From: Albifimbria verrucaria
Taxonomy: Eukaryota > Ascomycota > Sordariomycetes > Hypocreales > Stachybotryaceae
NCBI GenBank assembly: GCA_020081605.1
Contig: JAHREC010000017.1
Location: forward strand, 1-64,000
DNA length: 64,000 nt
Reading direction: 5' to 3'
The first letter of the stretch is position 1; each line of letters opens with the position of its first letter. The notes below the pieces were generated by a model. The model was not told where the DNA came from. It saw only the letters and a list, made by a program, of their open reading frames with translations, and ran no database searches. Shown here one piece after another: positions 17,919 to 57,285 of this stretch. The position numbers and the translations under genes were made by a program.

Positions 17919-18513
17919 TTCTGATGTCCTTTGCGCTCACAGGCTCAGTGTCAATGATGCTGAAGTTATATGATGAGTGTATAGGGTAGGGTGGTGTCGG
18001 GTAACAACTCGGGGAAGAGTTTCGGCGACAGGATGCATAAAAATGGAAAATAGAGTACTCTGCATGACCTTGGCCCTGGTTACAAAGCCGCAGGGTGTCT
18101 GAGGGCGCCACCAGCATATACCTTGTTCATGCGAATGTGGCTGAATAGGCATCAAGCTAATGTCTCTCCCCGTTGCAAGCCCTGCTGAAAAAGGCGCGAC
18201 TGTACTGCTGACGCGCGTTTTAAATACGAAACAAAAGGGGGAGAAAAGAAAAAGCAAAGTGAAAACAACAAACACGGTCATAAATAGAAGACATTAAGTA
18301 CAAAGAGGCGAAGGCTGCTCTTCACTCCACTTCTGTTTATTTCATCTTTAGGCACACAAGAATAGTCCACCAAGTGACTTCCTCCAGGCGAGATCCTCGA
18401 CAAATGCTTTAATATTAATATTAAGTGCGAATCCAGGAAACTTGCACTGATGGAAACTGCGGGTACGATTTCGTCGCTATTCATAGTGTGTTCGGGACCT
18501 TGCCATCGGAAAG
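17919..18513. other. No gene; probable promoter region
   Basis: This is the upstream region of the DGQHR gene. Minus-strand frames at 17937-18281 and 18278-18484 are hydrophobic or mixed, overlap in different phases and show no domain. I treat them as noncoding leader sequence. Confidence 0.35.
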
Positions 18514-18708
18514 ACTAACTACCATATTTCGCTCCCTGGGGCGAAACTGATTCATTTACTATGGTTCCGAACCAGGACATCTGACATGCAATAAATAAAT
18601 CGGTTTGGCAGGGTGAAACACATACGACTGTTTGTAGGAATTGGTTGGAGTTTGGTAGAAGGGCCCGTATGTCAGCTCTCACTCCCGGGGTGAAATATGG
18701 TAGTTAGT
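18514..18708. mobile_element. MITE-like element with terminal inverted repeats
   Basis: The left arm ACTAACTACCATATTTCGCT (18514 onward) is matched in inverted orientation by GTGAAATATGGTAGTTAGT ending at 18708. The arms extend into CCCTGGGGCGAAA and ACTCCCGGGGTGAAA. The element is about 195 bp, has no coding capacity and fits a miniature inverted-repeat element. A further half-arm (TTTTCGCTCCCTGGGGCCAAAA) occurs at about 18769-18788. I see no clear target-site duplication, so the exact ends are uncertain. Confidence 0.6.
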
Positions 18709-18821
18709 TCCACCATCAGTGGCACTCAGTTGTTGCATGTCGTTCTATTAGAGTAGACCCCACTTATTTTCGCTCCCTGGGGCCAAAATTCACCTGATGC
18801 ATTACGGCCCGCCCCTACGCC

Positions 18822-18905
18822 CCATTATTATTATTATTATTATTATTAGTAGTAGTAGTAGTAGTTGTCGTAATTTAGTAGTAGTGGCAGACACATTCAC
18901 GTATG

Positions 18906-18970
<65 letters not shown>
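18822..18970. repeat. Microsatellites ATT, AGT and AC
   Basis: Three runs follow one another: (ATT)n to about 18848, (AGT)n to about 18864, then after 40 bp (ACACAT)n passing into (AC)n to 18970. They mark the left edge of the AT-rich block. Open frames through them (His-Thr repeats) are artefacts. Confidence 0.9.
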
Positions 18971-18974
<4 letters not shown>

Positions 18975-21225
18975 TTAACCCTATACCCAAGCACGGAATA
19001 CTCCTCTACAATATTTTATAAATTATAAATAAAATAATTAAGTAAAGTGATTATTAATTATATAAATTGCTTATAATTTAAGTATATTAGAAACTATTAA
19101 ACTTATATTATACTATATAAATAAAGGATTTAAACCTAAATTCTATAAGGAGTTATTACTAAGGATAGGATATAAGAAAGGAATAATTAAAGTAGATAAA
19201 ATAAAGGAGCTATATAATATATTTTATAAAGAAATTTTATTTATATAAATAAAAATAAAGGAATTTTATAATAAGAAAAAATTAAAAGGATTAATTTTTA
19301 AAAGGAAGATATAGTTTATATATATTATATAAATATTAAAACTATAAAATCTAATAATAAATTAAATTATAAAAAACTAGGATTATTCTTAGTATTATAA
19401 AAAATCTTAGATATTAATTATAAAATTAAACTTCTAGATAAAATAAGGATATATAATATCTTTTATATTATACTTTTAGAAAAAGTATTAAATAGAGAAT
19501 TAGCTAAAGAAAGTATTAAAGTTTTTTAGTTAAACTAGAATATAAAATTAAGAAAATTCTAGAATATAAAGTTAATAATAAAAGCGAAGAAAAATATTTT
19601 ATTAAATAAAAGGGGTATAATAAAAATAAAAATACCTAGGAATTCCTAGAAAACTTATTTAATATTAAAATTAAGCTAAAGGAATTTTAGAATTATTTAA
19701 AAGGCTAAAATCTATAAATTTCTTTAAACTAAGTAAAGGTTAATTAATTATATTAAAATAAACTAAGGTTTATATATTAATAACTACCTTAGAAATCTTC
19801 TTAATAAAAGCCTCTTATTTAATAGATATAATTATAATACTTTCCTTAGACTTAAGGAGATAATATTAATAATATAACTATACTAACTTTATAATAGCCT
19901 TATTTAAAAAAGCCTGCTTCTAAAGAAGATTAAACTTAGCCTTCTCCTCCTCCTACTTTAAATATTTATTCTTCTTAATTATATAAAATACTATAAAAAA
20001 TTAACAATAGAATAATTAAAGAAAAAGATAAAGATAATCTATAGGAAAGGAGGGGAATATTATTAAAATTATAAAGATAACTTAAATAAATATAGGTTTA
20101 ATACTTCTAACCTTCTTTTATTATCTTATACTTTACCTTTTATTCTTATAATAAGTATATAATATAATAAGAAAATTAAATTACTTAATAGCTAAATAAA
20201 GTTTCTAATAATAGGCAGCGGAACCTAATAAAGTATAATTAATTATAATATTAATATAATATAGAAAAAGAAGGAAGCAGGTTAACCTATAAAGGTAAGT
20301 AGGCAATAAGTAACCTTATATAAGGACTATAGCCTTAAGGATTTAACTATAAAAAAGGATTATTATATTATAATCTTAGCTAATACTATAATTAAAATAA
20401 TAAAATAATAATAGGCTAATCTGGTTATTAAGGACCCTATAATAGGATTAATATTAAAGATCTATTAATATTTATTAGAATAATTATTAATAGGAGATAA
20501 ATAGTATTAAAAGGGTTTATTATTATCTATAGAAGATTAATAAAAAAAATAGCCCTAAGTATATTTAATATAAAGCTAGATAATTAGAATAATATTATAA
20601 AAGAAAAAAGGGAGCTATATACTAAAAAATAAAGCTAGTATTCTTAGAGGATAACTAAGGCTAGCCTATAGTATATTAACCCTAGTAATAAATTAATATA
20701 AAATATACTAACCTAGCTTATAGGCTAATAAGGGATAGGCTAGAATATAAGATAGGTTAATATATAAAATATATTAGCCTCTTAGGAGAATAATATAAGA
20801 TATAGGATAGTATAGAGTAACTGGAAATAAATTATTAAGGTTAGAATAATCTATATAGAATAATAGCTATTATAGATTATTAAGTTATTATATAATAATA
20901 ATCTATATAGCTTACCTACTTACTATAAGTAAATAAATAATAATAATTATTTATTTATTATAAATAAGTAAATCTCTTAGTATATAGATAGGAGTCTCTC
21001 TTATTATTAAAAGTAAAGATTATTAGCTATTAATAATATATAATCATTAAGCTACCCTAGATCTAAGTTTCTAAAGGTAATTTATTTAATTAATAATAAC
21101 TATATAATTATTGCTTTAGAATAATAATAAGCTTTATTATTTATTTAAGGATAATAACCTGATTTTATTTATTCTATATCTTTTATAAAGGTATAGAATA
21201 ACCTGGATTATTATATAATCTACCC

Positions 21226-21525
21226 TACTATAGCTAGGTAGAATAATAAGTAAATATAGTTAGATAAAGAAGGGGTTAGTATTTAGGGTATATAAATAAG
21301 AAAGTTATTTACTAAGGTACTAGAAATAGGGTAAAAGGGGATAAAGTGATGTTAATTAGAATAGTAATACTGAGGTATTAATAGCTATTAATTATATAAA
21401 TTATAATAGAATTAATAGCTAAGTAAATTTAATACCCTAGGTATATAATAGAGACTTAATATTAACTATAGCTATTTAGCTATTCTTAGTAGTATAAGAA
21501 AGAAATATAAATAATTAAACTCCTC
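21226..21525 (+). repeat. RIP-mutated copy of the 10.2 kb repeat
   Basis: This sequence is collinear with 10166-10475 in the same orientation. The shared words CTACCCTAC, ATAGCTAGGTAG, GATAAAGAAGGGG/GGTAAAGAAGGGTG, GAGGTATTAATAGCTATT and TAATACCCTAG fix the alignment, and the differences are overwhelmingly C-to-T and G-to-A. It gives direct evidence that the block was repeated DNA and that point mutation, not neutral drift, produced the AT bias. Confidence 0.75.
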
Positions 21526-23469
21526 TATATAGGTTTCTTTCCTATAATAAAATCCTTAGGAATTTCTAACTTAATAACTCTATCTTACTATAATAAACCC
21601 TGAATAAAGATAGCTAATCTTAGTTACTAGTGAGAAGGGTACTATCTATCTATACTATACTATCTTATAATAATTAATTAAAACTAGTAACCTAGCTATA
21701 GGGGGGACTGACTAGAATAAAATATTACTCAGTATAGCCTACTATAAAAAGGGCTTAATCGATAATAGATAAAATAATATAAATAGGCTAAGCTATAATA
21801 GTTAATATTAGTAGCCTACTATATAGAGCCTTTATTATAAATTCTCTCTGATATATATATACTAATAGAATCAAGCTAGAATATATTTAAATAAAGGATT
21901 TAATAATAATAATAAATACTAAATAGTAAATAGGATATAGAATAAGGCTAAGGCTAGCTATAGATATAATTCCTAAGAATAATTTTATTAGCTTTATAAA
22001 GAGTATAACTCTATAATATTTCTATATATTACTCTTTATACTTTATAATAGATTAGTATTCTAGGAAGGCTAGTATATAATTAAGTATAATCTATATACT
22101 ATCCTATATTATTTTTATTCTATAATATTATTTAAATAAAATTTTCCTAACCTTAAATATCTAGCCCTATCCTTCGAAGGTAAATCCACTTAATATTAAT
22201 TTTATTTATTAAACTATTCTGATAGTCTAAGTAATATATATAAATCTATAATTATACCTTCTAGGAATAAAGAGAGCTTTTATAATATTATATCCTTAAG
22301 CTTATTAGTAATACTAGGATAATAAAATCTTTTAAGCTTACTTTTTATAACCTAAATAATTTATAGAATTATTTATTTAAAGATATTTTTAATAATTTTT
22401 AGAATTTATTATTAATAATTTAGGTTAATATAATAAATAGGGAAATATATACTTATTTTTCTTTATATTTAGTTCTTATAAATTCCCTTATTTTATTATA
22501 TTTCTTATTAAGTATATTATTATTTTTTTAACTCTAAACTTCTAATATATCTTTAACCCTATAATATTAAGTATATTATTATAAGATTTTTAGTTTAATA
22601 AGAATTATTCTTATTTAGGTATTTAATTCTCTGAGGCTAGACTATATAGAGTTAAAGACCCTAGGTTAATAGAGTATATAATAGTATATAACCCTAAAGA
22701 GTATACCTATTAAAGATTAATAGGTTTCTATAAGAAGGAGAAGGGTTAGTATAAAGTAGTATCCTATTAACTATACTAAGGGCTATCCCTAGGGGTATAT
22801 TTAGAGGTATTTCTAAGGCCTAGTAGATATTATTAAGAGTTAATTTGCCTTTATAGAAAATAGCCTTATTTAATAATGATATTATAGTAGCTATAGAGAA
22901 TCTAGCTTAAAGATAATAGCGATATAACCTATAGATCTATAATTAAAAATATATTATAGGTAACTCAGAGAAATCTAATTGAATTAGAATATAGAAGGCT
23001 ACTATTTAAGCTTAAAAATAGATTTTTATAATTTATTTAAGCTAAGCTATTACCTTTATGCTTTTATAGATATTTATATTAATACCTTCCTACTTAGGTT
23101 TATATTTAATTATATAAATAGCTTTCTATCTAGCTTTATATAAGGCTCTAAGCCTAGCTTAATATCTAGCTTTACTCCTACTTATCTATAGAATATTAAT
23201 CTCTTTAGTTACTATAGTTAAAGTAATAATAAAGCTTAGCTAGAGGAGTCTTTATAGTAGGTAAATTACTTAGATATTAAAATAATCTATAAGAAATATA
23301 TAGCTTAACCTAGTGAGTAGGCTATATAGCTTAATATTTATTATAGATAGTATAGATTAAGGAGGCTTAGGTTAATACTATCTATATTAAATATATTAAT
23401 ATAAAGAATACTTAGTTTTAAGTAATAAAGGGATTTGCTTAATTAGGTAGGCTATATAATTAAATAATA

Positions 23470-23645
23470 CTTTTAGCTTCATGCCTAGCCCTATATCTAA
23501 TATTATATCTAGCTTTAGCCTTAGCCTTATTACCTAGAATTAATACTATACCTAGCTTTATACTCAGCCTTAAGCCTAGCCTTAAGCCTAGCTTTATACT
23601 TAGATTTAAGCTTAGCTTTATACCTAGAATTAATTCGATAGATAA
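23470..23645. repeat. Degenerate CCTAGC/CTTAAG repeat inside AT block
   Basis: Words CCTAGCTTTATAC, CCTTAAGCCTAG, TTTAAGCTTAGC and ACCTAGAATTAAT recur several times within about 175 bp, including a near-duplicate of CCTAGCTTTATACTCAGCC and CCTAGCTTTATACTTAGAT. A second weaker cluster lies at 23,100-23,180. This is probably the remains of a short-period tandem repeat of the mutated element. Confidence 0.55.
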
Positions 23646-26600
23646 TATATATATTTAATATAAGATATATAACTTATATTATATAAATCTATAGACTATT
23701 TTCTTCCTCCCTGCCTTAGAATATTTTATATTCTAATACTATAGATTAAGGCTTTAAATAATAAATAATAAAGGTTTAATAGAATATATTTTTAATAATA
23801 TAATTAATTAATAATTTATTATTTTCTATATTCTATTACTAATCCTGCTGCTAGCCTGGATATAATATTAGCTATAAAGCAAAGATATAAAATACTTATA
23901 ATTAATATAAAATTAAAGGAATACTAGCTTAGAGTTAGGTATACCACCGCTATACTATAATAGAACTATATATTAATTTTAATAGGCTACTAATATATCC
24001 TATCCTTATTAACCCTAACTAGTTATTAATATTAAGCTAAGTATAGCTATAGTGTTTTTTTAGAGTATATAATCTGATTATTTATTATAATTATTAATAA
24101 TAATTATATATTTTATATATATATTACTATATATATTTAAATATTACCCTTATCCTCTTTTACTTTAATCTTATTTAAGAAACCCCTGCTCTAGAGGGCG
24201 CTTTTATATCTTCAATTATTAATAATAAAGAATAATTATAACTATAAATAAAAATACTTTATTCTTATATAATATAAACCCTTTTATTAAACTTAATTAA
24301 ACTATATTACCTTTAGGTTCGAATAGTATAATAATCTTTATTCCTACTATAAATTATAGCTATAATCCTCAGAGAAATTATAAGGGTTTTTATAAAGTGA
24401 ATATATTATATAATATATAGATTTAAGATATATAATCGAATAATAATATAAGACTCTAATATCTAAGCCCCAGGGGTTTATTAATATTACTACCTCTAAT
24501 AAATAATCTATATTACTTTTAGGAATATTAGTCTATTAATTATTTATTTAATTATAATTAAGATTAATAATCTTAGGGTTTCTAAGAATAAGCAAGCTAA
24601 TAAAGTCTATTAAGAAAGTTTATATAAGCTAAAATCTTTTATTAAGCAGGTATATAATAAATATATAAATATAAGATTATTTACTAAGCTATAAGTCTGC
24701 TAGATTAAGCACCTATAGTAATAGCTATTTCTAGTTTATATAATATTTAATCTATAGCTAATTCTATTCTCTTAGACTTATATAGAATCTATTAATACTT
24801 TATTTATTTCTATTCTTATTATTCTATAAGCTATAATAAATAATAATTAATTAAAATTAATAACCTAATCAGGGCCTTATATAGGAGATTTACACTAGAT
24901 TAAGGAAAATATACTTTTATTTAATAATAAATTAATATCTTTTAACCTATACTCTATCTATACTTCTGAATACTATTATAATAAACTTATCTAGATACTT
25001 TTATAGCTAGTTTAATTATAATTAATTTTAATAAAGATAATCTTCTAATTGAAGTTAATAATCCTCTAGGTATAAACTAAGCCTCTAGGTCTCTATATCC
25101 ACCTACCTTAATAGGCTTAGTATCCGATTTATAGTATAGAATTTCTTTAATATAGCTAGTTAATATAATTAATTAATAATATATAGGCTTATTTTCTTAA
25201 TCTTTATATTTATTTTCTTTATTATTTTCTTCTTTAGCAGGATATTATTTCTATAATACTTATTAAATAAATTAAGCTCTAGGAACTATAATATTCAAGT
25301 TATAAAAGCTATAATAATATAACTTAATTCCTTCTTTCTCCCTACTACTTCGAATTATATTTTTTTATTATAACTTAAGGTATAGTAGATAATACTGCTA
25401 TAGTTAATATAAGTATTAATATAAGGTTACAGCATTAATCCCCTTCCTAATTAATATAAGGAGGCGATAGTATACTATCTAATAATAATTTACTATTATT
25501 AATACTCCCTCCTATTTATAAGTTTTATATTGCTTATTAAAGCTATCTAGGATAAGCTTAGATATTTTCTAAAATAGTATATAGCAACTAAAATTAATAA
25601 TTTCTTATTATATTCTCTTAAATATCTACTCCTTTATCTTTATTTATATATTAGCCTTTATAATAAGTCTCTTTAGGCTATTAAATATTACTATAATTAA
25701 TTATTTTATCTTTACTATTCTAATAAGTTATACTACCTACCTACTTATAATATAGCTACTATATAATCTCAGTGCCTATACTATATTAATAGAAGCTATT
25801 ACTATAGTTAGAGTATTCACCTAGCTATCTCTACTAATATTACTAGATTTAATATACTTAATAGTATTTTAAATAATAATAAATTATATTGCTTATTTAC
25901 TTATAATTACCTAGCTTACTATAGTATCTATAATTTTATATACCTTAAATATTTTTATTATAAAATTATACTATACCTTATTTAAGGTATAGATAATACT
26001 TAGGATACTATTCTTTATATTATAAAATAGCTTATTATAGTATTTATTAAATTATTAATTATTATAGGTAGGTAAATAATATTAAGCTATTAATTATATA
26101 TACTTTAGATTAAAGGGTTCTTTATTCTCTTCCTAAGCTTCTAGTAACTTATCTATATACTTAGCCTACTATATATTAATAATCTTACTGCTATATACAC
26201 TATAGTTTAGTATATAATAAATATTTAAGGCTATAAATATTATTATCTATAGTATCTATATTTTATAAAATATATTCTTAAGGAAGTATATAATAATTTA
26301 TAAATTATATATACCTTAGCTCTCTATTTAACTAAACTATATTTAATTATATTAATTAACTATAATAATAATATTATAATAATAACCTAAAGCTATTATA
26401 TATAGAAGGATCGGTTGCTTCTGCCTACTATACTTATATAGCTATATTATTAAGTTTATTCTATCTACTCCTCTTAAAAGTTAAGTATAATAGATAAGAT
26501 AAATAGCTAACCTCCTATTAAAAGGCTATTTATTATTAATAAAGGCTTAAGTATAGTCTTAGGTAGAACTTAGGGATTATTAATAAAGTAATAACTTCTT

Positions 26601-28800
26601 AGCTAATTAAGTATAACTATACTCTTATAGATTACTAGGTTAAGACCTTTATCTCCCTAGCTAGAACCGCTATTCTATTTTATATATAGCTATATTAAAG
26701 ACTTTTATAAATATATAAAGAACCCTAGAAAAAACTAAAAGGCTAAAGTATTATAGAATTATAGTATACTTAGCAGGCTTTTTAGATATAATTATATAAT
26801 CTAAAAGATAAGTTCTAGGATTATAAAAAAATTCTATTGCTTAATAATTAATTATACTATTTAAATAATAATAACCTACTCTATCTAGAACGCTATTTAC
26901 TCTTATAATATAATAGCCTTTATATAAGCTCTTTTTATATATATAGTATAGAGGCTTCTAGTTACTTAGGGGTTCGCTTATTATATAAATTATAAAGTAA
27001 TTATATATTTTTATTCTATATATACACTAGGCTATAGCCCACTTTTAATAATAATAAGGCTAAGGTAGCTATTATTATACCCTTCATAGTTAAAAGGTTA
27101 TCTCTTCTATACTAAAAAGCCTATTTTAAGCTGCTTAAATAACCCTAGGAGCTTCTGAATAAAATAATATTATAGCTATTATTTTAAAGGCTTATATTAT
27201 TATATAGAACTATAAGAAGGTCGCTAAGAAACTCCAGTAGCCTCTTAAAGAAGAAGTTTCTATAATAAGAATAAAATACTAAAGGGTAGAATATAGTTTC
27301 CTATAGGTTACTATATACTATAGCTACCTAGGACCTATTAGCGAGTAGGTATAGAGCTTTTCTTTTATTATCTATATCTTTTACTCCTATTTATATTATT
27401 AAGGATCTATTAAAATAATAAATATTAATTACTATAGTATAAAATACCTATAGAATATTCTTAAGTTTATACTTTCTTTTTAGTTTCTATTAAAGTATAT
27501 TAAGCTTATTAGAATATAAGCTTTTTATATATCCTTAGTCTTTAGAGGCTTAACCTATAAACTCTTTTCTTCCTTATTATTTAATTCCTTACTAAGTTAA
27601 TGCTTACTTAATAATATTAATCTTACCTTAAATATATTTTTATTAATATCCTTCCTTTGTTTTTTTATAAATAATAAAATATTTTTTATATTATCCTTAA
27701 TTATATTATTATTATTTTCTTTTTATTATCTATACTTTTTATTTTATTATTATTATTATTCTTACTCTTACTCTTACTTTTATATTTATTTACTTAGAGT
27801 ATAGTTATATAAAGAAAAGCTTTTATTACCTTATTAATCTATATTAATATATTAATATTATAATTATAAATATAGAAGGCTAGCTAATAATTAGCCTAAA
27901 ATTAATTATAGATATATATATCTAAGAAAATATTCTATTATACTATAAATAGCTCCTAAAATATTATTTATTTCTTAAATATAATATTTTATAATTAATA
28001 ATCTTTTAATATTTAATATAGTTTAACTCCTCTTTAAGCAGTATACTATCAAGGAAAAGTTCCTTAATATACTTTAATAGAGCCTTAGTATAGTCTTTTT
28101 ATAGTATACTCTAATAACTATCTAGTATTAAGCCTAGCTAACCCCTTATATATAATATAGATAATTTAAGTATTTCCTATTAAATAGGATATATAATTAA
28201 GAATTATATCTTATAAAAGGCCCCAGTAGCTAGGCAAAATATATAGTTTATAAGCTTAAATAGGAGGCTATTAATAATATATATTAAGCTATATAGGGCT
28301 ACCTAATACTATAGGGTAAAGGTAATATTATTAAAGAAGGAGCTCTAGCTTATAATAGCCTATAGAGGATTATTAATAATACTAACTATATTTAAGTAAA
28401 AAATCAAATAATATTTATCTATAATACTTATAGGCTTAAACCTAGCTAATTATTATCTATAATCTATTATATATTTATACTAAAGTATATCTAGCGCTTA
28501 AATAATATTAAAATCTTTAGCTATTATCTATACTATAAAATCTTTTCACTATAAGGTTTATAAGCCTCTATATTATATACTCAGGTTAGGTATATATATA
28601 TTTCAGCCTATTAACCCCTAATCTATATAGTATTTTAAGCTCTATTATATAAATACTCATAGAACTATTCTCTCCTATACTTACTATATCTATATAAAAC
28701 CTATTATTTAATTTATCTTCTATAGGCATTATTATATTAACCTTACTAATTAAATTACTATCTTTAGGCTTATAACTAGCCTCTATTAATAAAAAAATTA

Positions 28801-29269
28801 CTACTTAAACCGAGAAAGCGCTGCTAAGGCCACCAAATCAGGCGGAAAGTGCCGCCATTTTAGCAGGCTCCAGCAGTGTGGGCTATCTGGCAGTAGAGGT
28901 CGTGGGCAGGTACTAAATACTTCTCTGAGCTGCCTGGGCATCTACTCAAGGGGCACCCTTGCGCTAGAGGACCCATATTTCCAGGGACTGGCGTGAGCTA
29001 GGACATTTTTCACCTTCTAGCTTTTTGCCTCGTGTTTCCCACTATCCATAATGTATTCATCCACCGTCCAGAAGTGGCCGATGGGGGTTAGACTGGTTGG
29101 AATGGTCTCCACCATTGAATGGCCCAAATGGCCGTTATCCCATGTAACCGGCCGCTCCCTCTCTGTTTCCCGACTGATGTATCCTCACACTCTCGTTTCG
29201 CTCGAAAGAGCCATACATCTCAATCATCGCGCTTGATCATCATTTCGGAGCTTAAATATTCGTTATACA
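28801..29269. other. Promoter-side flank of DUF3435 gene
   Basis: Base composition returns to normal abruptly at about 28,805. There is no supported gene; a 61-codon + frame at 29051-29236 has no motif. The region would hold the promoter of the recombinase-like gene starting at 29270. If that gene is a captain of a large mobile element, the element's 5' end should be in this interval or at the AT boundary. Confidence 0.4.
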
Positions 29270-31946
29270 ATGTCTCACGTAATTACATCCTCATATACCC
29301 GACGGACTACAACGGCCTTCATTCAGGAAAGCAACGCCGCCTTCCTTCAACGCTTTGTAGCACAAGAGGCAAATAATCGAGCTGCCAAGCAGAAGCCGAC
29401 ACTCTCGGTTGAACAACATGCCTCTCATCGGGCGCAGTTGAGCAAAGTCCGCTTCATTAAGCCAAAATACTCCCACGAAACGGAGATCAATGTCAGCGGG
29501 ATCTTTAGGAAATGGAAGCGGTAAGTACATATATCTTACGGGCTATGCGAAGCAACTCGCCTGTTTCTGACATCCAGAGGGCTGATATATTCGGACAACC
29601 TAATAGATATTGTGAGGATCTGCATGTTGGCGATTGGGAGTTGACCATCAAGAGTTTGAAGCGCGAGACGACACAGGACTTCTTCCTCTACATTTGTGAA
29701 AATTCGAAGATTAAATCATGGGCCACTGGCGAAGAGTACATCAGACAATTCCAGCAACTATATACCACCGTCACTGGTCAGTACATGGATCGGAATGATG
29801 CCAAGGAGGTATACAAGGTGTGTAGATGCTTCGAGTCCTGCATAAGGCGTATAACCCATTTGGCCTCTAGGTAGCTGATATCACATAGTATTACCGATGT
29901 GTTCTTATCCCTCGGTTTGGTCATCGCCCTCCAAACATGGACGGAAAACCGGTGCTGAACGTGGATAACTTGCTTGTTATCTTGACTTTTAACATTGCAT
30001 ACGATCTCAGTATTTTCCTGGCGAACGCCATCGCATACAGCTCACTTGCTGCTACCAAATCCTTTGCTATACTGGAGCACGACCAGCTGAGCTTGTGGAC
30101 GGCGAACGGAAGAAGCCAAAGGATGGATCGACTGAGGAGCTTTTTGGTCGAAAGGTCGTCGAGGCTCCTCCACCTGCGTCAGACGGTGGCGAAGATAAAT
30201 GCGAAGACAGAACCGAGAATCAAGAGTTGGCTCTTGACAAAGACTCACAGCTTGTCGAAAGTCTACTGTCTCAGGAAACCGTGGCACGTGGGAGACCGAA
30301 GGCTCTCTGTTACGAGGACATTCTGATGATGATTGTGCGGCACCCCGTAACTGGGCGTTGTCTCCCAGCGATGGCTATCAAGTTTATTCATCACAAGGAG
30401 CAGACAACAAGCCAAAGCCGTATTTTTCTCTCTCTTGACGCTGAAGTCTAATGACTAACTTGAATCTGAAAGGACTATTTTCTTTTTCACTCCGACGAGG
30501 AAAATTATCTTCTGCGCCCTATCGACAATGCTCTCTCTCGCTCTGCACGATAAAGCGTTTGATGCGCCGAGCTTGACAGATGCATCAGCAATATTCAGCA
30601 AGCAACCACCACGCTTCCAGCAATGCATTCCTCTTCGATGGAAGCAATCTATGTTGAAAATCCCCGTTTTTCGTCGGTATCGAGGGCGACGCTCTCGGGA
30701 GTTGAGGCTATGTTATACTCTAAGCTCAGGGATGATATGGGTCAGCAAAGCCTTGATTCAGGACACGAAAAGAAATGGACTCCCAAATTTGCAAGACGAG
30801 GCGCCTCGAACGCTGCTAATGGTATGCTCAGCACTCAGATCATCTACATCCGACAAAAAGCTCGTTTCCGAGGTTTATAATGACATGCTGACATGTCGTG
30901 GTGTAGGCGATGCACCAGACCCTGTGCGTGACCAAATGATGCGTCACGACCCTCAGTTTGCCACGTTTCATCACGCATATCTGAACGAGATTGCCAACTT
31001 CGATATGCAAAATGCTTTCCTGGAGGAAGAGAAGGAATGTCAGCTTTTCCGACTCTTTGCTCATGTTAGTCTCACACGCGATCCTCGAGCGACAGCGGAT
31101 ATGGTTCCTGAGGAGGTATGGGCTAACCTCGCACCTGACCCTGAGATTGTCGGGCTTGAGGAGGAGCGAGCCCGGCTCAAGCAGGGCCACTATCGAATTG
31201 AAGGTCACGAGTACGAGGAAAGGATCCGGCAGCTGACTAATGAGATTCGCACCAAACGTGCGCAGCGTGACAAGCAGGTCGTCAAGGACTACCGCGAGTA
31301 TTACTTCTACCACCGTCCTACCTGGGACATTGAAAGACAGGCGCGTGGCGAGGAAGAGGAAGAATATATTGAGCCTACAATCAATGTTTCCATTCCAGAG
31401 CGGGTAAAATTGGCGGAGATTCTTTGCCATCAAACTGACAGCCTTTCCGAGGATTTCATCCTGCGACAGAGAATTGAGGCTATCAACCTGATGGTCGCGC
31501 TCTGTGATAAGAGAGAGACAGTAAGGCGCGATCGGACTCAACACAAAATCACGGCTAGCGCAGCCATTGAGACTCAGCTAGCAGAGCTGGACATGGGTCT
31601 TGTCGTTGACCCTTTCCCTCTTCTTATGCATGGGGCCCAATGCCCGGATTGTATCGGTGATGAGCGACTTTCGCTGCAGGAGCGCTCTTTCATGTATTGT
31701 CGGCCTACCGTCATGAATGACCATTTTGACCGCCAGCATCTAATAAGGCGCGAGCAGGCCGAGCAAAATGGGGAAAAGATTCGGTGCGAGCATCCCAAAT
31801 GTCGTAATCTCAAACTTGAAAGTCTAGATGCGTTCCGTTGCCACGTGTTGAAAGTCCACGGTGTGGTCTTGCGGTCATCGGAGCAAATTGAGCAAAGACG
31901 TCAGCGGAAGGCAAGATATCGGCAAATGGTTAAAAGCAGGTGCTAG
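29270..31946 (+). CDS. DUF3435 tyrosine-recombinase-like protein with C2H2 finger
   Basis: There are five exons with clean introns at 29521-29579, 29818-29888, 30420-30472 and 30822-30906 (GTAAGT, GTGTGT, GTATTT and GTATGC donors). Three single-base losses (near 30,012 in TTTT, 30,397 in GG, 30,676 in GG) break the frame. Restoring them gives exons summing to exactly 804 codons. The catalytic part matches DUF3435 (FluG-domain) proteins: KPVLNVDNLLVIL; box I Arg in YTGARPAELV; LCYEDILMMIVR; box II in KFARRGASNA; then VRDQMMRHDPQFATFHHAYL with the His and the likely Tyr nucleophile. The C-terminal half is a charged coiled coil, then a zinc finger (CEHPKCRNLK...CHVLKVHG). DUF3435 is the family of Starship captain recombinases, but many members with C-terminal zinc fingers are not proven captains. 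The likely role is DNA cleavage and rejoining. Confidence 0.85.
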
Positions 31947-35992: not shown

Positions 35993-38900
35993 TTAAGTTA
36001 GCTTATCCGCGTATATACAGATTAAAGTGACTCTTCCGGATTGAGAACCAGTTGCTACTCTGGATTCTGAGATAGCGAAACTGTTTCGGGAGGTTGGCCG
36101 GATATTCACTGGTAACCATAGCATCTTGTCCCCGTCCCATGTAATCCAACAGTCATCATCATCCAGCCCGCATCCTGATAGCATAGGATTATTAATATCT
36201 ACAGGTACATGGGGTGATAGGCGCGACAAGCGAGTGTTCTCTATCATCAGAATCCCAGCAATTGTAGATAGGTTGGAGCCGTCTGGAGTAAATGACAGCT
36301 GAGACGGTCCAGTATTGAAGATTTGTAGGCATTGGCCGGTCGCGGCATCCCAGACCCGGATGGTTTTATCATAAGAGACCGATGCAAGACGCTGGCCATC
36401 CGGCGAGAATACCACCGAGGTTACCACACTGCTATGGCCCTCCAGCGTCTGCAGGCATTGGCCAGTTGTAGCATCCCAGACCCGAACGGTCTCATCACGG
36501 GAGGCTGATGCAAGATATCGGCCATCCGGCGAGAATACCACCGAGAGTACCGAGTGGCTATGGCCCTCCAGTGTCTGGAGGTATTGGCCGGTCACGACAT
36601 CCCAGACCCGAACGGTGTTATCATCCGAGGCCGATGCAAGATATCGGCTATCTGGCGAGAATACCACCGAGTCTACCGAGTCGCTATGGCCTTTCAGCGT
36701 CTGCAGACATCGGCCAGTTGTAGCATCCCAGACCCGAACGGTCTTATCATACGATGCCGATGCAAGATACTGGCCATCCGGCGAGAATACCACTGAGTCT
36801 ACCGAGCTGCTATGGCCCTCCAGCGTCTGCAGGCATTGGCCAGTTGCAGCATCCCAGACCCGAACGGTCCCATCATCCGAGGCCGATGCAAGACGCTGGC
36901 CATCCGGCGAGAATACCACCGAGTCTACCGAGTCGCTATGGCCCTCCAGCGTCTGTAGGCATGAATCCCAGTTCTGGTCCAGAGTCCCAAGGATAGATAA
37001 CCAAGCCCATTGACTCTTTAGGAACACATTTCGTACAGGGCTTTTGAGTGGTAAGACAGCGATAAGAGCGTAGATTTGAAGTGGGTAAGAAGCAATAGTT
37101 GACATATAGGTAAGGCTAAACCGGATAGCATCATCGAGTAGTATTATTGCTTCTTCGCTGCTCTGAGGCTTATACAGTAATGAGTATCTTTTACTGTTCA
37201 AATAGGATAGGCAGAACGCACCTGTGAAACAGAACGCAATGTTCGCAGAATTCCAAGGCTCTCTGATGCCTGCCCTAATAGACTCAGTGCTTCGATCCAA
37301 TATAGTAGGTGGCTGGAGAGGAAGAGGTAAAGTTCATTATCCGAGATAACCATGCCTCCTTTTTTAGGTGATCAACCCAGTAAAGACAGGCATACTCAAG
37401 CTCTGGCTGGATATGGTTAGTCACTGTTTGCTGATCTATATCGGATCGAGCGATTCCCGGTCTTCGCAAATCGCATATGTCCCTTCGAAGGCTTTCCTTC
37501 ATTACGCGGAGGCAATGGACCACTATATCTTGATGTATCTGTCTCTCATCTATCCCAAGCGGCGTTTCCCCATGTTTCAGGGTCGACTAGAAAATCCCGG
37601 AAAGATAGATGGAGCAAGCGTATCGGACCCGTTGACGAAGAGGGAACATGCAGGACGGAATGGAGCATATCCAGCCTGACATCAATAATCTCCTGAGAAA
37701 CATTTAGTAATTTCGCAAGAGCCGAGCTTGAAAGAGGACTCTCAAGGGTAACAATGGTGCCGACAACCTTTCGAAACTGTTGAATGATCTCAGTTCTCTT
37801 TTGCTTCGGCTGAACGTCAATAATCTGTCGATTCAAGATTGGCAGGTACGTTGCGCTAAGACCAGAGCTTCCGCTCTTTCCCTTGTGCGCTATAATCTCG
37901 TCAAGCAGCTCGTTGGGGCGCCGTACCTACGATCGGCGACAAAACGACAGGCAGTTGCGGCAGAGATAAATAGGGGATCGCAATGTCCATCAACGCCTTG
38001 ATTGTCCGCTGATTTGGCCAGTCTGGAGGTAATCTCCGTGTCTCGCCTACCGTACGGTTATAATCATCCCGTATCGACTGGAAGTTTTGTTCCAAAAATA
38101 ACGAGATATCATGCTCGATGATTTCAGATTTGATTTCGTGAAGAATGAAATCTTGGTAGGTGTCCTTCGCATCGTTGAATTCCAGGCGGATTGGTAACTC
38201 TGGCCTGCTCGTCATAAAGACTTTTACCCCGGGGATTTTTGGAGGGTGCATACGCGCAAAGAGATTGAGGATACTTCTGATCTTGTCATCGCCCTCACAT
38301 TCATCTAGCGCATCCACAATGATGACGAGTGGACCCGACAAGGTGATCTTCGACAAGGGCTCAAAGACCAGCTTCTTGAACTGCTCCTGGATAGCTGAGC
38401 TCGATATCGTTGAGTCTCTTTCAAGTACCTCCATAAGCATCGGCGCTACCCTTGGATGTTTATCAGCGAGCTGGCGGGCTATTGTCGTCATGAACTTCGT
38501 GGCATTTCCTCGATCAGCCTCTCCTCTCTTGAAGAAGAAGCTGGCACCGAGGCGGTTTGTCTCAGATAGCGAGCGAGCGATGGTCCGCGATATGGTTGAC
38601 TTCCCGTCCCAGCCATGCCATTCAACCAAAAGAGTGCCTTAGCGCTAGGATCGTGAATCCATGCCGATATCTGGTCGAGGAGCTCCACCCGCGTATTTTC
38701 AAGGCAAATCGGATTCGATCCTTCGTCATGCGAGTTAAACGAGGCACCTTTAGCGACAGGAAGCCGGTCAAGCATAATAGCTTGATCAGTGCTCAAGGAA
38801 ATGGCACTGTCGACCGTTTCTGTTAGCTCGAAACGTGAGTTTGATGAGGAGAATTATGTTCTACAGATGGTCTTGCCGTAACGCCAGGGAAAGTGTCTGC

Positions 38901-51785: not shown

Positions 51786-52424
51786 TTAGGTGTATAGCCG
51801 TTTCCAAGTATCTAAAGTTGAAATTGACGATCGCGTATCAGGATGATCCAGCCCAAGTTTCAGAGCACAGAATTGGACGCAATTTTCCATCAGATCGATG
51901 GCTTCGCGTATTTTCCTCGTGGAACACCAAGTGTAGGCTAAGTTATTCATACAAGTCAGTGTATCAGGATAGTCTGGTCCAAGCTTGGTCTTGATTGTTT
52001 CAATTACCAGTACAAAGAATCTCTCTGCTTGCTTAAACCAGCCTAGATCCCAATATATGGATACGAGATTAGCTGTACTTTTTAGCGTATCGGGATAGTC
52101 TACTCCATGCTTTATCTTACAAGCGTCTATTACCTCCATCTGAAGCGTCGCTGCTTCCTCCCATCGACCTTGATTTCTGTGTATTGATGCGAGATTGGCC
52201 ATGCTCATCAAAGTATCAAGGTGATCTGCTCCAAGCGTGGTCTTCCAAGTCTTCACCACTTGTGTATCAAGTCTCTCTGCCTCCTCCCATCGGCCTTGGT
52301 TCACATATGTTGATACTAGATTGACCATGCTCGTCAACGTTAGGGTTAGGGTTAGACAGGGATATCCATCTCCATTAGGACCAGCCAAGCCTGGATGTTC
52401 CCTGGTTTGCCCAAATAAAGACAT
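51786..52424 (-). pseudogene. Kinesin-light-chain-type TPR fragment
   Basis: The frame encodes four 42-residue TPR units with the signature YxNQGRWEEAExL...LGxDHPDTLxSMxNLAxxY: NQGRWEEAERL, NQGRWEEAATLQ, DLGWFKQAERFF, STRKIREAIDLM. Each is followed by an LGxDxxDTLxxxxNLA-like linker. Such repeats are the ligand-sensing C-terminus of many fungal STAND proteins (Pfn/NB-ARC-TPR), but no NTPase domain lies upstream here. The upstream side breaks exactly at an interstitial telomere repeat that is read as LTLTLTLT. The fragment ends in a natural-looking stop at 51786. I read it as a severed end of an NLR gene. Confidence 0.7.
52339..52355. repeat. Interstitial telomere repeat (TTAGGG)
   Basis: GTTAGGGTTAGGGTTAG lies inside the TPR fragment, with G-rich orientation on the + strand, opposite to the window's own telomere. 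On the left it joins the TPR coding sequence at GACGAGCATGG-side DNA (minus reading ACGTTGACGAGC), and on the right an unrelated CCATCTCCATTAGG sequence. This is typical of a break once healed by telomere addition or filled with telomere sequence. Confidence 0.85.
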
Positions 52425-53164
52425 AAATTCGACGTGTCGGAGTTGTGTCCATACTGCTTTCTTCCATCACACTAGCAAACATTTCAACTGCGTCTTTCAT
52501 TGCATTTGATCTTCTTCCATGCTTAGTTGGCACCGAAGCTGACGGCCGAGAGTAAGTGGTTTTAGTCCAGTCAATCAATCATGGCTTAGCGAACATGCGC
52601 CGTCAGCCTCGCTGCCGCAAGCCGTCCGAGCCACCCCAGTGTACAGACCTTCTGCAGCTAAAACAGTCCTGATGAACATACCTTCATGCAGCCCTATGGG
52701 CATTGCCATTGCAAGACATCAGGGGCTTGAGCCGGCAGTACATTTAGTCAATATGAACGCTCTTTCAGCGACGAACGGGACCAGTTGGAATGATGTTACC
52801 AAATTCTACGATGGAACGTCATCATTGGGTGAGAAAGGCAAGTACAGTATGCAAATGTAAAACTGTTGTGACAAGCCCCGATGGAATTGCTTTAGCGGAC
52901 ACAACTATCCATAAACAACAGGAAGATTTTACCTCATATCCAGAAGAATAAGGTCGCGTACAGTATATTGATAAATCACTGTGCGAATCTGTAATAACAA
53001 CTAGTGCGTCAGAGGAGAGAGGATTAGTTTATCCGGCAGACTATTTTGGGTGAGTATGGTTTGTAAATGCCCCCAAATGAAGGTGCACCCTAGAGCCTCA
53101 GGAGCGAGAAGAAAACTGGGATACCGAAGACAAAAGTGACGGCTCCATCGAAAGGCAGAAGCTG
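52425..53164. other. No gene seen
   Basis: Short frames occur on both strands, including minus 52375-52578 and plus 52639-52860, without motifs. Sequence composition is normal. Confidence 0.35.
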
Positions 53165-54478: not shown

Positions 54479-54997
54479 ATGTCGTTCACAAAGAGCGGCG
54501 TCAAAAACAATGGCAAGGCCGCAAGTAAGCGAAAGCAGGCCAAACGCTGGTCCCTGCACCCAGCCCTCCACGCCGACGTATCAGCTTTGCTGGAAGAGGA
54601 CAGTCTCGAATACAGCTTCTACAACGAAGACGATGAGAATAATTGTATTCGAGAGTACGATACAAACATCACCGGCCGGTTCGTCTGTCGAAATAACAAT
54701 TGCACATCTAATGGATGGGCCAGCAAGCGAATTGCAATCACGATTCGGAAGTACGACAATAACAGCTACAACGCCAGGGTCTATTACCAGAGATGCCAGG
54801 GTTGCGACACACTTGGCAAGCCCATTCTCGACAAGTCATACGCCGAGAGAGTCGCATATCGCCTTAAGAAATGGTCCGGCGTTGTGACGGAGCCTCCTCC
54901 CTACACGAACAAAAACAGCCAAACGCCTCATGAGGAGGACCTTTGCGAGGGCTGCAAGGCCGGGCATTGCGTTCGAGGAAGTACATGGGTTTATTAA
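54479..54997 (+). CDS. 3CxxC-type zinc-finger protein (RTP-like domain)
   Basis: This is an intact 172-codon frame starting MSFTKSGVKNNG; an ATG 84 bp upstream in frame would add a hydrophobic stretch, but I prefer this start because the charged N-terminus leads directly into the domain. The zf-3CxxC domain spans about residues 60-165: GRFVCRNNNC (first pair), GWASKRIAITI, ARVYYQRCQGC (second pair), YAERVAYRLKKW, then CEGCKAGHC near the end (third pair plus the final Cys). That order is diagnostic for zf-3CxxC, shared by vertebrate receptor-transporting proteins (RTP1-4). RTP4 is interferon-induced and binds viral and host RNA. The fungal members are uncharacterised. There is no C-terminal membrane anchor, unlike the RTPs. 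Its 3' end faces the kinase gene 218 bp away. Confidence 0.85.
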   Translation: MSFTKSGVKNNGKAASKRKQAKRWSLHPALHADVSALLEEDSLEYSFYNEDDENNCIREYDTNITGRFVCRNNNCTSNGWASKRIAITIRKYDNNSYNARVYYQRCQGCDTLGKPILDKSYAERVAYRLKKWSGVVTEPPPYTNKNSQTPHEEDLCEGCKAGHCVRGSTWVY

Positions 54998-55214: not shown

Positions 55215-56046
55215 CTAGACGAGAAACTGTGCTCTGGTTCTTTTCTCGGCCATAATTTGCCGCCATATTTCACTCTCGTTAAGCCTCTTGCTCAGAATCT
55301 GAATGTTGTCTTCCCTTGTTCCATTTGCGTCAATCTTGTCGGGTCAGCGTTTCTCGAGCTTGAGATGGGACATTGGGCCTTACCTGCATCAGAATGCCGC
55401 GCTGTCGGTATATGTTCTCGACAGGAACAGTCTCCTGCGCATACTCTGCGAAGCGCATCTCAAATTTATCCTCGCTATCGTTCGCATCTCGTGCTCGGCT
55501 TAAATACCGCGCTTTGGCATTGTCCTTTGTAACATCAAATGAGAGCACTATGTCGGGCTGCAGGTCAGGTAGCCTTTCGCCGGCCCTGTCCAGAGCAAGT
55601 GTTTTTTGTCATGGAAAGGCCATTCTTCAGAGGCCTCTAGTTGCTCTACACACCGTGGAAATCCATCGAGTATAATCCCGCTCGCTTCTGGTTCTGGGCG
55701 GCCTGCAGTCTCCAAGATGGCCTGGCATAGAAAAGGGTTCAGGGCCTCAGCGCTGAGAAAACCTTGGTTCTCTAGCTTGTCCTGTATTTCGGCTGCGAGT
55801 GGTGTCGAGCGATTCTCCCGCACCCAGGCACGAAGGTAGTCTCCGACGGAATAATGAGTGAGATTGTGCGTGTGTGCCAGATGTGTTGAGAGCGTTCCTT
55901 TGCCCGCACCGGGCGCTCCTGTAAATGATTAGAACAGTGCGAATGGTGCAGTTAAGTGGTGCCACAATCAGTTTGGAAGAATTACCCAGTACAAAAACTA
56001 TGGCCAAGCTGCGATGAGATTTGTCGGAGCTGCTTGTGGTCTCCAT
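55215..56046 (-). CDS. Adenylate-kinase-family NMP kinase, UMP/CMP kinase-like
   Basis: Start METTSSSDKSH at 56046. Exons are 56046-55986, 55918-55384 and 55334-55215; introns are 55919-55985 (GTAATT...TTTACAG) and 55335-55383 (GTAAGG...ACAAG). The P-loop FVLGAPGAGKGTLSTHLA is formed across intron 1. Next is HYSVGDYLRAWVRE (NMP-binding start), SGIILDGFPRCVEQL (the LDGFPR motif), QPDIVLSFDVTKDNAKARYL, a lid with RFAEYAQETVPVENIYRQRG, and an IDANGT end. One base is missing in an A run near 55,608; with it the exons make 239 codons. UMP/CMP kinases turn NMP + ATP into NDP + ADP. The kinase shares a 229-bp upstream region with viperin and would supply CDP/UDP towards CTP/UTP, viperin's substrates. 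Human CMPK2 is of a different (thymidylate-kinase) fold family, so similarity is functional. Confidence 0.88.
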
Positions 56047-56275
56047 GGTCGGAGGATCATATGTAAAGGCGAAGGTGGGCCATCAATCTGCAGCTGGAAA
56101 GGCCTTACTTTGTCTCAGGGCAGGCACGACATGCTGGAGGCCTTCCAATGATTCGTCATCAGTCAGCGCAAACACGAGCATCTCTTCTCAAGCTCCGAGG
56201 TTGGGGCGCGCTTTCAGTTTCCCTCTTCTTCTTTCTACGTGTGAATCCATGGGAATCATTTATTTTAATAGTAGT
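56047..56275. promoter_or_regulatory. Bidirectional promoter, kinase and viperin
   Basis: Only 229 bp separate the two start codons, so both genes must use this stretch and are likely co-regulated. The last 60 bp before the viperin start are CT-rich then AT-rich (TTTCCCTCTTCTTCTTTC, then TTTATTTTAATAG). A TGACTGATGAC word lies on the minus strand near 56,160 and resembles a bZIP half-site, but this is weak evidence. Confidence 0.55.
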
Positions 56276-57285
56276 ATGCATTATTTGTCGATCTTGATCA
56301 TTGCTGCACTCGGTGCAGGGCTTCTTTACCTCTGTACCAGTATGAGAAGCCGCTTCTACCAGCCCCCACGCCGGCGCCGGATGCTCCGGTATCCGTCAAC
56401 TACTTCCCCTCTCGCAAATGCAACTACACCTGCGGCTTTTGTTTTCACACAGAGACATCTTCCTATGTTCTTCCGATCGATGAAGCGAAGCGAGGTCTCC
56501 GGTTGCTAAAGGATGCCGGTATGCGCAAGTTGAATATTGCGGGAGGAGAACCATTCCTCTACCCTCACCTTCTTACTCAGCTATTGCAATATTGCAAAGA
56601 TGATCTGAGAGTCGAAAGCATCAGCATTGTGAGCAACGGCAGCAAGGTTAAGGAGACTTGGATGCAAAACAACTGCCAGTGGTTAGACATTCTTGCCGTG
56701 TCGTGTGACTCGTTCAACCAGAAGACGAACAAAAGGATCGGACGTGGTTCCGATGGAGGGAATGTGGCTCGGCTGTTCCAAATTGCAGAGTGGTGCCGAA
56801 AATACGGCATCAAGTTTAAGCTGAACACTGTCGTGAACGCGCACAATTGGAACGAAGACATGGTTTCCAACATCGAGAAGTTGGCACCGTTTCGATGGAA
56901 AGTCTTCCAGTGTCTTCTTGTGGCTGGCGAAAACGAAGATGAATCGAGGCTGCGAGACGCACGAAATTTCCTCGTAACCACTTATCAATGGCACGTATTC
57001 TGCGACAAGCACAGGCACCTCTCGTGCTATGTACCAGAGGATAACACCTCCATGGCAAGCAGTTACCTGCTTCTGGACGAGTACATGTGTTTTCTGGATA
57101 AAGGCGAGGGTATAATGACCAAAAGCGAGTCTATCCTGAAAGTTGGCGTCAAAGAAGCAATGAAACAGGTCGTGTGGGATAGAAAATCATTTATTGAAAG
57201 AGGTGGTATCTACGATTGGAGTAGAGAGGACATGCTGCAGCAGGGTGGTTGCCAGAACGACGGCAGCAAAAATCTCGATTGGTGA
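56276..57285 (+). CDS. Viperin-like radical SAM enzyme (RSAD2 homologue)
   Basis: Start MHYLSILIIAALGAGLLYL, a membrane-anchor helix in place of the amphipathic helix of animal viperin; an ATG 27 bp upstream is possible. One base is missing from a C run at 56,362-56,367; with it the gene has 337 codons, near the usual 330-360. Motifs in order: VNYFPSRKCNYTCGFCFH (CxxxCxxC cluster binding [4Fe-4S] and SAM), LNIAGGEPFLYP (GGE SAM site), SIVSNGSKV, NTVVNAHNWNEDM, RWKVFQCLLVAGEN, NTSMASSYLLLDEYMCF, and a C-terminal RGGIYDWS. All are characteristic of viperins. Viperins convert CTP or UTP into 3'-deoxy-3',4'-didehydro nucleotides that terminate viral RNA synthesis. Which nucleotide this one prefers cannot be told; the neighbouring kinase suggests a pyrimidine. 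No other break is seen. Confidence 0.93.

Follow-up and report, generated by a model that had tools for sequence, protein, structure and literature searches.

The stretch of DNA analysed here (the window) comprises bases 1–64,000 of contig C14 (JAHREC010000017.1) from the 48.4-Mb assembly of the fungus Albifimbria verrucaria. It contains a gene for a viperin homologue and, on the opposite strand, a gene for a nucleoside monophosphate (NMP) kinase of the adenylate-kinase family (Table 1). The two start codons, at 56,276 (+) and 56,046 (−), are indeed divergent and 229 bp apart, as the original prediction from the bare sequence had claimed. The region between them, which we presume to be a shared promoter, contains only short repeats.

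The family identity of the viperin gene is clear. Its product matches the Radical_SAM domain (E 3.7e-18) and passes the NCBIfam model NF038283 (viperin family antiviral radical SAM protein) with 240.8 bits at a cut-off of 180, although it misses the cut-off of the narrower "exception" model TIGR04278 (viperin; 385.2 versus 450 bits). Its best matches among proteins of solved structure are viperins or viperin-like enzymes, with E down to 7.6e-108. Both previously claimed motifs could be located: CxxxCxxC reads CNYTCGFC (codons 56,419–56,442), the GGE codons lie within 56,539–56,553, and both motifs are invariant across 18 aligned fungal relatives. A hydrophobic stretch precedes the domain, as it does by visual inspection in the relatives P0003, P0004 and P0017; an alternative ATG in the frame of this anchor lies at 56,249. 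The genome search returned this locus as the single viperin match in the assembly.

The kinase gene is interrupted by two introns (55,985–55,919 and 55,383–55,335) and stops at 55,215, an end reckoned from a last exon of 39 residues plus stop codon. A search of the genome itself placed an ADK match at 55,623–55,922 (E 1.1e-12, exceeding the Pfam cut-off), and the profile of the kinase family scores 187.6 and 109.1 bits on the two open stretches of the middle exon. The ortholog from Paramyrothecium foliicola (P0121) matches PF00406 with E 1.1e-19 and 71.5 bits at a gathering score of 26.8, and does not match the thymidylate-kinase family PF02223 at E 0.01. It reaches the cut-off of neither the UMP-CMP kinase subfamily TIGR01359 (74.9 versus 207.6 bits) nor the adenylate kinase subfamily TIGR01351 (101.9 versus 168 bits). 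Residues K27, R50, R109, R162, R164 and R176 are invariant in 24 sequences and, as judged from the sequences, the main catalytic residues are kept in this clade. Grouping with the housekeeping UMP kinase of the same species had been set beforehand as one of two outcomes that together would speak against a specific pairing. What we found is a clade of its own, apart from the housekeeping kinases of the same genome including its URA6.

The frame of each gene is interrupted once, a point absent from the original prediction. In the viperin gene the break at about 56.36 kb falls between the segment with the ATG and the anchor (MHYLSILIIAALGAGLLYLC...) and the radical-SAM domain, whereas the viperin of P. 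foliicola (P0001) runs uninterrupted from MRGRFYQP into the domain. The kinase frame breaks at about 55.6 kb, and ortholog P0121 is again intact. By visual inspection, a housekeeping URA6-like gene (contig C36) and ADK-like genes (C10 and C4) are also frame-broken at or near DGFPR. Since three housekeeping NMP kinases are broken too and both P. foliicola proteins are intact, an indel error in the assembly is likelier than decay and is the likeliest cause of the breaks. An intron was rejected as the likeliest cause of the viperin break because the close ortholog reads through without interruption. Many of the enumerated GT/GC-AG splices listed could join the viperin frames on paper, but the candidates inspected lose the anchor, rely on weak sites or begin far upstream, and none is convincing. 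That both genes are decaying pseudogenes in this strain would fit one break per gene and a subtelomeric location near disrupted-looking genes. Yet the radical-SAM domain is free of internal stops and 96% identical to that of P. foliicola, the nearest listed relative for both genes (viperin 96%, kinase 89% identical), so that together with the broken housekeeping kinases and the intact orthologs we regard decay as very unlikely. The broken housekeeping kinases also caution against any pseudogene claim made from this assembly.

Table 1. Positions of the viperin–kinase pair and of neighbouring features in the window
Feature	Position	Strand	Remarks
Viperin gene	56,276–57,285	+	Frame broken once in the assembly
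Viperin N-terminal hydrophobic membrane-anchor segment	56,276–56,362	+	From three-frame translation; frame differs from that of the radical-SAM domain
Viperin radical-SAM domain and C-terminus	56,363–57,285	+	Radical_SAM match, NF038283, CNYTCGFC; boundary to anchor approximate
Intergenic region between divergent start codons, presumed shared promoter	56,047–56,275		229 bp; promoter function presumed
Kinase gene, three exons	56,046–55,215	−	Adenylate-kinase family (PF00406); frame broken once
Kinase exon 1 (METTSSSDKSHRSLAIVFVLG)	55,986–56,046	−	ATG at 56,046; agrees with start of P. foliicola ortholog
Kinase middle exon	55,384–55,918	−	Walker A, NMP-binding part, DGFPR, lid; frame break at about 55.6 kb
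Kinase last exon (IDANGTRED...AQFLV, stop)	55,215–55,334	−	Agrees with end of P. foliicola ortholog
3CxxC zinc-ribbon gene (PF13695)	54,479–54,997	+	Sole match in this genome
TPR-repeat reading frame	51,789–52,466	−	About 2.7 kb from kinase end
NLR-like parts	35,996–38,638	−	NPHP3_N/NACHT stretch and WD40 repeats; 126-bp repeat unit
DUF3435 (PF11917) gene	30,459–31,946	+	Further DUF3435 matches on contigs C18, C19, C20 and C21

Linkage of the two genes in other fungi

To score linkage among the nearest relatives of both proteins, we compared the best 120 of 2,189 viperin matches with the best 120 of 170 kinase matches, counting a viperin row and a kinase row as co-located when their contigs have exactly the same size in base pairs. 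No contig size recurs within either list. With this criterion, 42 of the 120 viperin rows are co-located with a kinase row. Eight of the shared contigs measure only 4,076–15,186 bp, which bounds the distance between the two genes. Wherever locus tags with the same prefix occur in both lists, they are consecutive by visual inspection (14 of 14 pairs among the matches listed, for example SLS62_000362/363, FPOA_11788/787 and TWF506_009224/223). In contrast, the same comparison for the neighbouring 3CxxC gene, which served as negative control, found none of 120 listed relatives (best 120 of 484) co-located with a listed viperin.

Among the matches listed, 37 species are named in both lists, and in 30 of them the genes are co-located. 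The other seven (Daldinia loculata, Fusarium proliferatum, F. oxysporum, Pyrenophora tritici-repentis, P. teres, Colletotrichum cereale and C. scovillei) may be accounted for by differences between strains or clusters. The remaining 32 of the 69 species named for viperin lack a counterpart in the list of the best 120 of 170 kinase matches; since 50 more kinase matches lie outside the list and one name is shown per cluster, this does not prove absence of the kinase. In Arthrobotrys conoides, two contigs each carry one viperin–kinase pair; the two viperins are 90% identical and the two kinases 78%, a pattern that resembles duplication of the whole unit. The pairwise distances of the 42 viperins and their kinases correlate with r 0.66, a value uncorrected for species kinship, and the largest of 2,000 permutations gave 0.31. 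The divergent orientation was observed in the A. verrucaria genome. One viperin (P0022) and one kinase (P0230) are both filed under Quercus suber, probably owing to fungal contamination of a plant assembly.

From these data we conclude that viperin and this kinase are linked beyond chance. The original prediction had allowed for a chance pairing, to be concluded if most fungal viperins lacked the kinase neighbour and the kinase grouped with the housekeeping enzyme. As far as this can be tested it is not the case, because the linkage recurs in many genera among the listed relatives and the kinase stands apart from the housekeeping UMP kinase; these counts apply to the best 120 of 2,189 viperin matches. 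With recurrent linkage in other genera and the 3CxxC gene as negative control, mere coincidence is scarcely credible.

Relation to known viperin–kinase systems

Linkage of viperin to a nucleotide kinase is as such of a known kind. CMPK2, the neighbour of vertebrate viperin (RSAD2), belongs to the thymidylate-kinase family. As in the fungal pair, the vertebrate genes are adjacent and their linkage is conserved (for the fungi, within the listed matches), whereas the fungal kinase belongs to PF00406 and not to PF02223. The kinase had originally been assigned to a different fold family than CMPK2. The different Pfam family stands, but the fold was overstated, because the ADK and thymidylate-kinase families share the P-loop NMP-kinase fold. 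According to PMC11249213, viperin requires CMPK2 for its activity, and in bacteria a CMPK2-like kinase is the direct neighbour of 15% of the viperin genes.

The same two functions are adjacent or fused in prokaryotes (PADLOC pVip and pVip-kinase). We fetched 13 prokaryotic viperin loci and scanned the neighbours of four for protein families. At least 4 of the 13 loci contain an adjacent kinase and all four scanned kinases are PF02223, unlike the PF00406 kinase of fungi, the profile of which gave no match better than E 0.001 at any of the 13 loci. Among the PADLOC models, the viperin from P. foliicola fits "Viperins not associated with kinases" best (224.6 bits, versus 205.4 and 187.0 for the "associated" and "fusion" models). 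The PF02223 neighbours and this better fit both support the earlier suggestion of a separately assembled partnership. Since the fungal kinase comes from another family than the prokaryotic partners, it was probably recruited separately. Relative to yeast uridylate kinase and eukaryotic UMP-CMP kinase, to which it is 22–24% identical, the lid of the fungal partner kinase is shortened by three residues, and DGFPR is followed by an insert. The fungal-like viperin-like enzymes with solved structures (PDB 7n7i, 6b4c, 9dfn and others) are likewise radical-SAM viperins (E 1e-104 or better), but their records do not include a kinase partner.

Shomar et al. 2024 reportedly found that eukaryotic viperins are partnered with nucleotide kinases and kept together by genetic linkage. 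Viperin–kinase linkage as a general idea thus has a precedent, and that paper may already include the fungal case. Our literature search, which did not cover Bernheim 2021 and Shomar et al. 2024, returned no paper on a fungal viperin–kinase pair. Culbertson and Levin 2023 (PMC10732462) mention fungal viperins, and the terms "nucleotide kinase" and "CMPK2" do not occur in the portion of that text available to us.

The viperin in the window contains the sequence NYFPS just before the first cysteine. This motif is present in 40 of the 42 linked viperin rows, the other two being unreadable by pattern. Among the 78 unlinked rows listed, 13 are unreadable and the remaining 65 contain NYFPS (55), NYFPC (2), NYFFS (2) or NYH (6); none of the six listed viperins with NYH is among the linked rows. 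At the same position, N(Y/F/W)H stands in the 13 prokaryotic viperins, and five solved chains have NYH in four cases and NYF in one. NYFPS is not established as a predictor of linkage: Fisher's test of NYFPS against NYH, which omitted the four NYFPC and NYFFS rows, gave p 0.079 and is confounded by kinship. Within the groups 9dfn/9dfu and 9dfw/9dgw/7n7i, the PDB chains are near-identical and differ either at NYH/NYF or within two segments of loops, which looks like an exchange made to study substrate choice.

Possible function of the kinase

We think it rather probable that the two genes form a conserved fungal unit, in which a membrane-anchored viperin is combined with a dedicated NMP kinase of the ADK/UMP-CMP family that supplies the synthesis of 3'-deoxy-3',4'-didehydro (ddh) nucleotides. 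Co-regulation of viperin and kinase, the kinase substrate, the ddh product and the antiviral role are what we infer for this unit. Both genes would be expressed divergently from the shared 229-bp region. The kinase would convert uridine or cytidine monophosphate (UMP/CMP) to the diphosphates UDP/CDP, and subsequent phosphorylation to the triphosphate would keep viperin supplied with its nucleoside triphosphate (NTP). By radical-SAM chemistry, viperin would turn this NTP into the ddh-nucleotide, which could then terminate viral RNA chains, presumably those of mycoviruses.

The same linkage evidence would also fit a kinase that acts downstream of viperin, either by rephosphorylating ddh-nucleoside monophosphates or by salvaging ddh-nucleotides, and in this way keeps or regenerates the antiviral triphosphate. 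A position outside both named subfamilies, the short lid and the insert after DGFPR are features that an altered substrate might require. However, the precedent consists of supply kinases (PMC11249213), and we regard this role as unlikely. Alternatively, the protein could be a local adenylate kinase handling ATP, ADP and AMP in the antiviral state rather than pyrimidines. A single-sequence search with the kinase ranks adenylate kinases first, and the adenylate kinase model scores higher than the UMP-CMP model (101.9 versus 74.9 bits). On the other hand, the best full-length matches of the family profile are yeast uridylate kinase (8.6e-24) and human UMP-CMP kinase (1.9e-23), and the genome already has ADK-like genes of its own, which makes this assignment quite unlikely.

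If the supply of viperin by this kinase is real, fungi coupled viperin to a supply kinase separately from animals and prokaryotes and drew on a different kinase family. This would speak for a genuine dependence of viperin immunity on locally supplied substrate. Mycovirology would gain a candidate nucleotide-based defence that is testable with two small enzymes, and also a natural set of viperins in which the motif beside the cluster is altered. A more far-reaching version, which we put forward only tentatively, is that a filamentous-fungal lineage built its own ADK-family viperin–kinase antiviral unit, independent of animals and prokaryotes, and also retuned the substrate pocket of viperin (NYFPS); the product may then be a ddh-nucleotide other than ddhCTP.

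Surroundings of the pair

Telomere-like CCCTAA repeats make up the first 102 bases of the contig and place the pair in a subtelomeric position, about 55 kb from the end. An interstitial telomere-like CCCTAA copy occurs at 52,340–52,351, inside the TPR reading frame. PMC12988326 mentions a viperin system from archaea that includes a TPR protein; any connection to the TPR frame in the window would be conjectural.

The 3CxxC gene was rejected as third member of the unit on the basis of the count given above (0 of 120). Vertebrate RTP proteins share the 3CxxC domain, and one of them, RTP4, is interferon-induced and antiviral. DUF3435 is the family to which the captain recombinases of Starship elements belong. 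This gene and the proximity to the telomere raised the idea that the pair is cargo of a mobile element; repeats of at least 30 nt at 28–64 kb were found only inside the WD40 gene. On viral contigs, the kinase profile matched two ADK-like loci and viperin matched none. The block at 18,001–29,000 has a GC content of about 20%, with flanks at 40–53%.
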